Shown here piece after piece: positions 3,752-33,917 of a stretch of 33,917 nucleotides of DNA (positions within the stretch are counted from its first letter, which is position 1; each line of letters starts with the position of its first letter). The stretch comes from Egicoccus sp. AB-alg2 (GTDB lineage: Bacteria > Actinomycetota > Nitriliruptoria > Nitriliruptorales > Nitriliruptoraceae), in assembly GCF_041821065.1 (NCBI RefSeq), contig NZ_JBGUAX010000019.1, positions 1 to 33,917 of the forward strand, given 5' to 3'. A program made the translations under genes and the position numbers. The notes beneath the pieces are model-generated. The model had not been told where the DNA came from, made no database searches, and saw only the letters and a program-made list of their open reading frames with translations.

Positions 3752-3840
3752 GGTGACGGACGCCCGGCTCGGCACCCGTCCGAGAACGGCTTAGGGCTGC
3801 TGCCTCTCGGCCCTGACCCGGTTCACCGGGGGACGTCACC
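3752..3840 (-). ncRNA. ffs: signal recognition particle RNA, small bacterial (4.5S) type
   Basis: Read on the minus strand, the segment contains the invariant SRP domain IV signature: GGTCAGG, then GCC, a GAGA tetraloop, GGC, then AGCAGC. This is the Ffh-binding hairpin with its asymmetric internal loops. The ends pair to close the rod: GGTGACG at the 5' end (3834-3840) with CGTCACC at the 3' end (3752-3758). The length of about 90-95 nt fits the small bacterial SRP RNA, and a position just upstream of dnaX is typical of actinobacteria. The exact ends are estimated from the closing stem. The tetraloop is GAGA instead of the more common GGAA. Confidence 0.88.
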
Positions 3841-4095
3841 GACGGACGCCCGTCACCGCACACCGCCGGGGTCGCTCGACCCCGCGTGAGTGGCGGACGG
3901 TACCAACCGGAGCCGTCCCCCGCACCCTCGGCGACCTCGGGCGCAGGTGCCACGTGCCGGCACGAGCGCCCGAGCACGGGACCGCAGACCTTGGCAGGTC
4001 AGTGCGGTTGGGTCGTCCGGGCGGACCTGTCGTCAGCCCGCCGATCACCGCGGCCCCCTCCAGACTGGTGATGCCCAATCGACCGGAGGACTGCC

Positions 4096-27959: not shown

Positions 27960-28048
27960 CGGAGGGAGAGGGATTCGAACCCTCGAGGGGCGTGAACCCC
28001 TACTCGCTTTCGAGGCGAGCGCACTAGGCCGGACTATGCGATCCCTCC
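27960..28048 (-). tRNA. tRNA-Ser, anticodon CGA
   Basis: On the minus strand the acceptor ends pair GGAGGGA/TCCCTCC with discriminator G. The anticodon arm CTCGC-CTCGAAA-GCGAG gives CGA (reads UCG). A long variable arm and the T-arm GGTTCGAATCC are present, as expected for serine. The bases after the discriminator are CCG, so CCA is not encoded and must be added by the CCA enzyme, unlike the other tRNA-Ser in the window. Confidence 0.97.
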
Positions 28049-29955: not shown

Positions 29956-30277
29956 CTCGTTTGCTCTCCATCGATGGGCGCCGCGCGTTCACCGGACCGT
30001 ATGCAGACGACTGCCGGCGCGATGTCTCATCGGCGCCTCGATCCCACCGCCGCAGGAGCTGGCGATTCCAGGCGTGTCGAGCCGGCGATGTGAGGCGCCT
30101 CGGTGCGTCGCTCGTTCGACCTCGTGCCCGACGCTCGGCGCACGGCCCGGCGGTCGGCCTGCTCGAAACCTGGCCATGCTCAGGAAGTGGGCGGTCGCGC
30201 CGTCCGGCACGGCGGTCGGCCTGCTCGGAACCTGGCCATGCCCAGGAAGTGGGCGGGCGCCGGCGGATCGACGCGGA
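29956..30277. other. intergenic region between tadA and the RibD-like gene
   Basis: A gap of about 320 bp holding the two direct repeats at 30149-30256. The first 190 bp show nothing further that I can support. Confidence 0.6.
30149..30256. repeat. two 46-bp direct repeats
   Basis: Copies at 30149-30194 and 30211-30256, with only two or three differences, period 62 bp, separated by 16 bp. Each starts GGCGGTCGGCCTGCTCG and ends AGGAAGTGGGCGG. Copy 2 contains an internal hairpin CCTGG-CCATGC-CCAGG; in copy 1 the right arm is one base weaker. The period is close to that of the repeats at 1342-1510. Confidence 0.88.
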
Positions 30278-30831: not shown

Positions 30832-31602
30832 GTGGAGTACCACCCCGGGGTCGAGTTGCAGCTGCTCGACGTCACCGTTCGAGCGCAACGAGCGATCCTG
30901 CGGGCCAAACGGCCGGAAGACGTCGTTGCGGCGCTGGAGCGCGCCGTGGCCCAGCTCGGCGGCTCCCTCGTGCCGGCCCACATCGCGGGCGACGAGGTAC
31001 TGCACATGGACGTCGGCCTCGGCGTGCGCGGGCCGCTGCTGCCCTGGGCCGCGCCCGACGACCCGGCGCGCCCGCGGCTGGAGCACGTGCTGCCCGGCCT
31101 GGTCGAGGACGGCCAGCAGATGGTCCATCGCCTGTGGCGCCTGGCCGAACGCGGCGACCCTACGCTGCACGACGAGCTCACCGGCGCGCTTCACGCCACC
31201 GCCACCACCAGGCTGATCACCCGCTCGCGTGCCGGTGACGTGCTGGCGGGCCTGGTGCTGGACCCGGACGGAGCCGTTGCGCGCCTCCATGGCGGCGCCC
31301 GCATGAGCAGCCTGCTGCACCAGCTGGCCGTCAACGTCCGCAGCGAACTCGACGTGGACGAACGGCTCGGGCGCCTGCACGGCCTCGCACTGGTCGCGGT
31401 CCTGCCCCAGTCCGACGAGGCGCGGGCGCAGGAGCTGCTGACCCGACTCGACCAGCGCTGGCGGCGCCGCGAGGACACGATCGACGCGCCGCTGCGGGGC
31501 GCGGTCACGGTCGTGGCCGACCGGCCGATCGACGCCCTGGCACGGCTGCGCGAGCGGCTCGGCCTGGTCCGCAGCGACGACGAGACGGTGGACGCCCCAT
31601 GA
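30832..31602 (+). CDS. degenerate GGDEF-domain protein
   Basis: A 256-residue cytoplasmic protein. Residues 1-100 are an unfamiliar N-terminal domain, possibly GAF-like (VVAALERAVAQLGGSLVPAHIAGDE). Residues 105-250 follow the GGDEF fold: DELTGALHATATTRLI is the DxLTGLxNR entry, LVLDPDGAVARLHGGARM matches the LDIDxFKxINDxxGH strand, and RLHGLALVAVLP is where RxGGDEFxVLLP should be. The signature is HGLAL and the metal-binding aspartate is replaced, so it cannot make cyclic-di-GMP by the known mechanism. GTG start with AGAGGA upstream. Its stop overlaps the next ATG, coupling it to the B12-domain gene. Confidence 0.82.
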   Translation: MEYHPGVELQLLDVTVRAQRAILRAKRPEDVVAALERAVAQLGGSLVPAHIAGDEVLHMDVGLGVRGPLLPWAAPDDPARPRLEHVLPGLVEDGQQMVHRLWRLAERGDPTLHDELTGALHATATTRLITRSRAGDVLAGLVLDPDGAVARLHGGARMSSLLHQLAVNVRSELDVDERLGRLHGLALVAVLPQSDEARAQELLTRLDQRWRRREDTIDAPLRGAVTVVADRPIDALARLRERLGLVRSDDETVDAP

Positions 31603-32666
31603 CCGCTGACCCGCGACCGTCCACCGAGCCGGTCATCGACCTCAGCCGCCACACGCAGCTCGACGACCGCCAGTCGGCGCTGGTCGCCACGTTCGTGGAG
31701 CTGTTCTCGCTCGCCGACCGTCACGGCGCGGCCGTGCACGCCCGCGAGCTGCTGACCGGCGGCCGCGACGCCGACGAGATCCGCGAGGCGCTCGCGCTCG
31801 CCCAGCGCCACGTCGGCGAGCTGTGGCAGGCGGGACACTGGACCATCACGCAGGAGCACGCCGCCACGGCCGTCGCCGAGGCGGTGTTGGCGACGCTCGA
31901 CGAGACGGTGGACGACCGCCCCGCCGTCGGCCGGGTCGCGATCGCGGCCGCCGACGGCGAGTGGCACGCCCTGCCGGCCCGCCTGGCCGGCCACGCGTTC
32001 TCACGGGTCGGGCTGGAGACGGTCTTCCTCGGCGCCGGCCTGCCGGCCGGCGACGTCGCACGCACGCTGCCGGCCCTGCAGGTGGACGCCCTGGCCGTCA
32101 GCGTCACCATGCCGTCGAACCTCACCGGCGCCGCCCGCACGGTCGCGGCCGGCCACAGCGCCGGGCTGCCGGTGCTGCTCGGCGGCGGGGCCAGCTCACC
32201 GCAGCGGGCCCGCGCGCTGGGCGCCGAGGCCCACGCCTCGTCCGTGCAGGACGGGGCCCAGACCGTGTTGCGCTGGATCGAGGAGGGCGCCCGTGCGACC
32301 GGGACCCCGGCGCTGCGCAGCGCGGAGACGGACGCCATGCGCCGCCGTCGCACGGTCCTGCTCGACGAGGCGTTCTCGGCCGCCGAGGAGCGCTGGCACG
32401 CGCTCGACGAGGTGCCCGACGACCTGCTCGACCACGTCATCGAGGACCTCGAGCAGCTCTACGACCACCTCGTCGCGGCGGTGCTGGTCGACGAGCCGCC
32501 CGTGTTCACCTCGCTGGTGCCGTGGCTGACCGAGGTGCACGCCGGCCGGGGCCTGCCGCCGGCCCTGCTGGAGATCGAGCTGGAGTCCCTGGACACGGTG
32601 CTCGGCGAGCATCCCGAGGCCCGAACGCTGGTACGGGATGCGCGGTCGAGCGGCGCGGGCGACTGA
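31599..32666 (+). CDS. cobalamin-binding protein, CarH-like photosensory domain
   Basis: A 355-residue protein. Residues 25-100 are a helical B12-binding cap domain with the photoreceptor motif W-x9-EH (W76, E86, H87 in LWQAGHWTITQEH). Residues 110-230 are the Rossmann B12-binding domain, with the lower-ligand motif ExHxx (E121, H123 in DGEWHALP; Pro replaces the usual Gly), SVTMPSNLTGAAR and PVLLGGGAS. This matches the light-sensing adenosylcobalamin module of CarH/LitR, but there is no MerR DNA-binding domain. Residues 245-350 are a helical C-terminal domain with no name. It probably senses light and passes the signal to the coupled degenerate GGDEF protein; that is inference. Confidence 0.85.
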   Translation: MTADPRPSTEPVIDLSRHTQLDDRQSALVATFVELFSLADRHGAAVHARELLTGGRDADEIREALALAQRHVGELWQAGHWTITQEHAATAVAEAVLATLDETVDDRPAVGRVAIAAADGEWHALPARLAGHAFSRVGLETVFLGAGLPAGDVARTLPALQVDALAVSVTMPSNLTGAARTVAAGHSAGLPVLLGGGASSPQRARALGAEAHASSVQDGAQTVLRWIEEGARATGTPALRSAETDAMRRRRTVLLDEAFSAAEERWHALDEVPDDLLDHVIEDLEQLYDHLVAAVLVDEPPVFTSLVPWLTEVHAGRGLPPALLEIELESLDTVLGEHPEARTLVRDARSSGAGD

Positions 32667-32700: not shown

Positions 32701-32955
32701 ATGCTGAACACCCGCACCTACCACGTGCCCGACATCTCCTGCGACCACTGTCGTGCCGCCATCGAGGCCGAGCTGGACAAGCTGGCCGGCGTCGGCTCAC
32801 GCACCGTGAACATCCCGGACAAGACGGTGATCGTGGAAGGCACCGTGTCGGAGGACGCCGTCACCAAGGCGATCAGCGACGCGGGTTACGAGGTCGAGCG
32901 GGTCACCGGTGAGGGCACCTCGATGCCCGGCGGCCACCCCGGCCCCATGCCGTGA
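32701..32955 (+). CDS. heavy-metal-associated (CopZ-like) metallochaperone
   Basis: An 84-residue HMA protein. The N-terminus YHVPDISCDHCRAAIEAEL carries the C-x2-C metal site, followed by strand-helix elements (TVNIPDKTVIVEGTVSEDAV, then VTKAISDAGYEVERV). It fits a soluble copper(I)-binding chaperone or a small metal-binding domain. It is not next to a P-type ATPase here. AAAAGGA lies eight bases before the ATG. A strong terminator follows. The short His/Pro/Gly tail may add metal ligands. Confidence 0.92.
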   Translation: MLNTRTYHVPDISCDHCRAAIEAELDKLAGVGSRTVNIPDKTVIVEGTVSEDAVTKAISDAGYEVERVTGEGTSMPGGHPGPMP

Positions 32956-33604: not shown

Positions 33605-33917
33605 CTAGGTGTCGCAGATCGCAGCGTTGTTGACACGGGTGATGGGCGGGCCACCGACTGCGTGATGGAAACGGTGATGGTTGTAGCGGGGGAGCCAGCG
33701 GTCAAGGTTGGCGGTGCGCGCGGCGTTGGAGCGGTACAGCTGCTGGTAGGCCCACTCGCGTCGCAAGGTCTGGTTGAACCGTTCGACCTTGCCGTTGGTC
33801 TGTGGCCGCCGGGGCCGGATCCGGAGGTGGCGGCGCACCCCGGTTTCGGTCAGGGCTTGGGCGAACTCGCGCGAACGGACGTAGGCCAGGGCGTTGTCGG
33901 TCATCACGCGTTCGACT
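33605..33917 (-). mobile_element. IS481-family transposase, C-terminal part, runs off the window
   Basis: The last about 100 residues of a DDE transposase, open through the right edge of the window (upstream codons read VERV before MTDN). The rve core shows TDNALAYVRS (second Asp), GVRRHLRIRPRRPQTNGKVERFNQTLRREWAYQQLY (with the third catalytic Glu in KVERF) and the WLPRYNHHRFHHAVGG end typical of IS481. The N-terminal DNA-binding part and first Asp are outside. It ends at a TAG stop (33605). The element end is near 33590-33600 but the partner inverted repeat cannot be seen. Confidence 0.9.

Follow-up and report, generated by a model that had tools for sequence, protein, structure and literature searches.

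Two overlapping genes of Egicoccus sp. AB-alg2, found in a stretch of DNA of 33,917 nucleotides (the window), probably encode a split photocobilin light-signalling module, in which an N-terminal domain of the first protein, here called Nd, would dock on the standalone photocobilin encoded by the second, and in which an enzyme output has turned non-catalytic and would work by contact. The observations behind this reading are the gene pair itself, the folds and key residues of the two proteins, their conservation, a natural fusion, the loss of catalytic residues and the selection acting on both genes.

The gene pair

ORF A starts with GTG and encodes 256 aa, and ORF B starts with ATG and encodes 355 aa. 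The features of the locus are as follows.

30832..31602, +: ORF A, with the Nd domain and a GGDEF domain predicted to be catalytically dead
30874..31125, +: Nd domain (A residues 15-98), associated with photocobilins, absent from Pfam, with modest structural matches to GAF domains
31174..31572, +: GGDEF-fold domain without catalytic residues (A residues 115-247)
31378..31392, +: HGLAL, where an intact domain would have the GGDEF signature (A residues 183-187)
31599..31602, +: 4-base overlap (ATGA) between the stop of ORF A and the start of ORF B
31599..32666, +: ORF B, predicted standalone photocobilin
31719..31898, +: B12-binding_2 four-helix domain (B residues 41-100), with W76 at 31824-31826 and E86-H87 at 31854-31859
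31929..32225, +: B12-binding Rossmann domain (B residues 111-209), with H123 (31965-31967) as the predicted lower axial cobalt ligand
32316..32633, +: predicted bilin-binding globin domain (B residues 240-345), with D283 at 32445-32447 and W309 at 32523-32525
32701..32955, +: gene for an HMA/CopZ-like metal-binding protein, downstream of the pair

The sequence-only reading that preceded this work had noticed that the stop of a GGDEF-fold gene overlaps the start of a B12-domain gene, and the ATGA overlap was confirmed on both ORFs. Overlaps of the ATGA or GTGA form are usual between the Nd gene and the following gene in relatives. Co-occurrence in related genomes had been left as a point to check, and the ORF A/ORF B pair does recur there; because both genes are also under purifying selection, the pairing is not a product of chance. 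The HMA gene is probably not a member of the module, since a matching order after the photocobilin pair was found only in G002, a genome of the same genus. A search with Rfam gave no RNA element, cobalamin riboswitches included, close to the pair, and elsewhere in the window it identified a bacterial small SRP RNA (3754-3852, -) and a tRNA gene (27960-28048, -). An imperfect direct repeat of about 45 bases in two copies (30147-30265; GCGGTCGGCCTGCTCG..AACCTGGCCATGC..AGGAAGTGGGCGG) adjoins a tadA-like gene, and a transposase/integrase-core fragment (33605-33917, -) runs off the contig end.

ORF B as a photocobilin

Photocobilins are light sensors that combine B12 with a bilin (Nat Commun 2024, PMC10979010), and members of the family need no DNA binding for light sensing and influence a diguanylate cyclase by protein contact (PMC10979010). 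Upon light conversion the Co-C bond is broken, the B12-domain dimer is rearranged and the fused cyclase is activated more than tenfold; the standalone SasPcob alters a cyclase in trans in an artificial setting, and the natural role of standalone photocobilins is unclear (PMC10979010). In SasPcob, His108 is the lower cobalt ligand and Asp270 the main bilin contact (PMC10979010).

In the PDB, ORF B was matched over residues 37-345 by SasPcob of Saccharothrix syringae (8J2W/8J2X; E 1e-50), followed by 8J2Y (AbPcob; E 1e-28), and by CarH only at E 1e-9. Like SasPcob it comprises a four-helix bundle, a Rossmann B12 domain and a C-terminal bilin globin, and W76, E86-H87, H123, D283 and W309 correspond to Trp61, Glu71-His72, His108, Asp270 and Trp296, all of them conserved and demonstrated to function in SasPcob (PMC10979010); among the SasPcob positions checked, the sole difference was His137, which is D152 in ORF B. 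Across 14 aligned photocobilin neighbours, W76, E86, H87, H123 and D283 were invariant and W309 nearly so. A family profile built from this alignment matched phycocyanins and allophycocyanins with its C-terminal part (best E about 5e-7), and Pfam Phycobilisome was above the cut-off in two relatives. Because the SasPcob bilin-contact residues are kept and the globin part has these matches, the sensor probably carries a bilin site. Judged from its sequence, ORF B is a standalone photocobilin of the B12 and bilin type, with binding of adenosylcobalamin (AdoCbl) and biliverdin and Co-C photolysis as predicted properties.

The sequence-only reading had called this protein CarH-like. The residues it had pointed out, W76, E86-H87 (a W-x9/10-EH motif) and H123 (in E121-x-H123, the E/DxH motif), are all in place as in the AdoCbl site of CarH/LitR, and it was also correct that no MerR DNA-binding domain is present (none was found with Pfam); the label itself did not stand. 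Unlike CarH/LitR, ORF B has a bilin globin, the NCBIfam CarH model gave 49 bits against a cut-off of 400, and with the MerR domain absent and the photocobilin match far better, we rejected filing ORF B as CarH. The HMM search that had been proposed placed both B12-binding_2 and B12-binding above the Pfam cut-offs. These two domains are common to corrinoid proteins, and ORF B might on this ground be taken for a corrinoid protein of the usual kind, belonging to a methyltransferase system, and no photoreceptor; this is hardly credible, as ORF B has W...EH and ExH motifs of the light type and its best matches over the full length are proven photoreceptors.

Bilin supply and the host genome

The host is related to MAGs of the Nitriliruptoraceae. 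A PduO-type cobalamin adenosyltransferase is present in the host genome, and a heme oxygenase of the PF01126 type was not found in it. The latter result would suit a CarH-type switch that responds through B12 only and in which the globin domain is a scaffold without chromophore, as would the CarH-like B12-site motifs and the case of AbPcob, a poor bilin binder, which is held to stem from a replacement of the bilin Asp by His (PMC10979010). We consider such a switch unlikely, because ORF B keeps D283, invariant in its 14 relatives, as well as W309, and because the host has one IsdG-like gene, away from the pair and with Asn/Trp/His in place, which could supply bilin. The photocobilin with a predicted bilin site remains our preferred description of ORF B.

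In about a dozen loci, ABM proteins are encoded beside, between or fused to the genes of photocobilin modules (L037:9986-10342, L038:8263-8643, L039:5165-6712, L046:22-1179 and L051:7852-8325; further L080:9026-9733, L112:6187-7014, L113:2-631, L116:8636-9784 and L118:4828-5007). Their nearest solved relatives are the heme-degrading enzymes HmoB/IsdG, and a role in bilin supply or handling is possible. At the positions that we take to be the catalytic triad, two of the three residues are changed in the six aligned proteins (Ser for Asn, Tyr for Trp). For this reason, and because no ABM protein accompanies the ORF A/B pair, we refrain from regarding them as proven bilin-makers. Another locus, L122:823-2775, joins photocobilin-type B12 domains, a GAF domain and an RNA-binding ANTAR domain in a single frame, possibly a light-controlled antiterminator.

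The Nd domain

The sequence-only reading had overlooked two parts of the pair, namely the bilin-binding globin at the C-terminus of ORF B and Nd, a domain of about 84 residues at the N-terminus of ORF A. A profile of Nd retrieved about 22 loci in the class. Adjacency was counted by hand in the 18 loci with flanking DNA, four further loci being cut by contig ends, and a photocobilin gene adjoins the Nd gene in 15 of these 18; the other three are paralogues in a single genome (G019). A genome of a few thousand genes holds one or two for photocobilins, so that at any one locus the two would be neighbours by accident in well below 1% of cases. A narrow Nd alignment, used in a profile search of genome contigs, returned five loci. 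Nd is not exclusive to photocobilins, an idea that we rejected on account of the three unaccompanied G019 paralogues and of the genomes G310 and G233, in which Nd is present and a photocobilin was not found.

In most loci Nd is joined to GGDEF, and the partner proteins of relatives are for the most part intact cyclases or outputs of another kind. It is also joined to GGDEF-EAL or EAL proteins (L041, L071-L074) and to PAS-HisKA-HATPase kinases (L051, L052), and in a Nocardioidaceae MAG (L080, JAQSWV010000033.1) Nd and the photocobilin form one reading frame, a natural fusion. As far as sequence comparison can tell, the constant element across the partner proteins is Nd, rather than the GGDEF domain. 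A MerR-Nd gene convergent to a photocobilin gene was seen at L053:8847-10758, an arrangement resembling a CarH divided into its DNA-binding and sensor halves. At L047:9055-9849, an Nd-GGDEF gene beside a photocobilin appears frameshifted inside its GGDEF part, where the Pfam hit is absent.

Nd has no entry in Pfam, and searches with its sequence gave no significant match in the PDB and none on plasmids. When modelled alone it reached a pLDDT of 94; Foldseek returned nothing under E 0.5, and the top VIA matches were GAF domains (KdpD, DUF484, phytochromes) at a modest Z of 6.9.

The GGDEF domain of ORF A

The GGDEF fold that had been proposed for ORF A was borne out by its model and its homologues. 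Pfam GGDEF stayed under the cut-off (E 0.11), and the close homologues are clear, intact GGDEF proteins. The AlphaFold2 model (pLDDT 85.5, pTM 0.54) aligned to the GGDEF crystal structure of DgcB (6ttr) with a Z of 14.5 and an rmsd of 2.2 A over 126 residues (VIA-align), and according to this model the domain has the GGDEF alpha/beta fold. Compared with intact homologues, the GGDEF motif is HGLAL and the metal Asp, FK and ND positions are replaced, as the sequence-only reading had held for the signature and the metal and substrate residues; the S-x-G motif, K442 and the RxxD I-site are gone as well (labels such as K442 follow what we take to be PleD-style numbering). All that marks an active diguanylate cyclase, namely the GG(D/E)EF motif, the metal Asp and the GTP-contact residues, is thus replaced, and c-di-GMP synthesis by ORF A is not to be expected.

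The same changes are found in relatives. The G002 protein repeats all of these losses, and those of G008 and G020 repeat the loss at most of these positions; the set forms a single clade with a support of 100/99, in a tree that carried a long-branch warning. The reading frame of the dead form has stayed open in four or more genomes, which belong to two or more genera. Between the genome of the pair (G000) and G002, dN/dS (Nei-Gojobori) was 0.20 for Nd, 0.37 for the dead GGDEF domain and 0.37 for ORF B, and such purifying selection implies that the dead domain is maintained. These results bear on the possibility that the module is decaying, in that a light-regulated cyclase has been lost, a relic of ORF A is kept for the translation of ORF B through frame and overlap, and ORF B acts alone elsewhere. 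The missing catalytic residues would agree with decay, and so would those photocobilins of the class that stand without an Nd neighbour (nearly half, in the flanking DNA examined). We nevertheless regard it as quite improbable, since selection on Nd and the dead domain is no weaker than on ORF B, the frame stays open in several genomes and the ORF A model folds confidently.

Degenerate GGDEF domains are known from E. coli CdgI and P. aeruginosa FimX, which like ORF A have the fold without the cyclase signature. Domains of the FimX type sense GTP (PMC8846402), and by analogy the dead domain might be a non-catalytic receptor for GTP or another ligand, with ORF A and ORF B integrating light and a metabolite. 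To this we attach a slightly lower probability than to decay: ORF A has other residues at the metal site, at the GTP contacts and at the I-site alike, whereas CdgI keeps its I-site (PMC5635695) and FimX responds to GTP, and neither shares the tie of ORF A to a light sensor. The strong binding of CdgI to other GGDEF domains (PMC5635695) offers a precedent for the contact-based output that we prefer. Since ORF A has lost every catalytic residue and is presumed not to synthesize c-di-GMP, light is probably relayed by protein contact instead of messenger synthesis. The host genome holds 14 other GGDEF domains above the cut-off, which are candidate targets. On sequence grounds, our results support the earlier view that the photosensor is of the B12 type, has no DNA-binding domain and is accompanied by a dead GGDEF protein, its partner or output.

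A proposed model for the probable split module

Cofactor binding, light response, contact between the two proteins, the docking role of Nd and the target are what we infer from these observations, and we suggest the following sequence of events. Green light would photolyse AdoCbl on ORF B, or red light would do so by way of the globin-bound bilin if this is supplied, and loss of the adenosyl group would loosen the B12-domain dimer. ORF A would be the dedicated partner of ORF B, with the stop/start overlap keeping their production in step, and its Nd would dock on the photocobilin and relay the dark or light state to the output joined to it. Among relatives, this output is mostly an intact diguanylate cyclase domain, or else a GGDEF-EAL, kinase or MerR module. 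In the dead clade the cyclase would have become a non-catalytic protein-interaction domain that hands on the light signal through contact; the most plausible way is to pair with a GGDEF protein of its own cell or to block one. Observations that count against the model are the Nd genes without a photocobilin, the nearly half of the class's photocobilins that lack an Nd neighbour in the flanking DNA examined, the failure to find a PF01126 heme oxygenase, and D152 in place of SasPcob His137.

The two genes look like a natural trans version of the control of a cyclase by a photocobilin. AbDPcob of an Acidimicrobiaceae bacterium (8J2Y) likewise couples a photocobilin to a GGDEF domain, as a single fused chain with an active cyclase and with the bilin Asp replaced by His. 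Unlike AbDPcob, the pair is encoded by two genes; its GGDEF domain is dead, ORF B retains the Asp, and ORF A adds an Nd to the GGDEF side. ORF B further differs from SasPcob in the 4-base overlap with a dedicated Nd-GGDEF partner gene; for SasPcob a natural partner was not established (PMC10979010). While the sensor family is known, the split arrangement with an adaptor and the maintained dead output may be new relative to the literature examined, and the neighbourhood has possibly been described in part already.

The locus and its relatives provide natural candidate partners and a candidate docking domain for standalone photocobilins, and with these named, the trans mechanism becomes directly testable. 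For green/red optogenetics, an adaptor that can be detached would be of use. We tentatively suggest, as a possibility somewhat short of probable, that Nd is an adaptor which plugs a standalone photocobilin into varied outputs (cyclase, GGDEF-EAL, kinase, MerR), and that the dead clade, in which the enzyme output was lost and the gene pair was kept, may represent a light-gated regulator of c-di-GMP enzymes that works by contact only.
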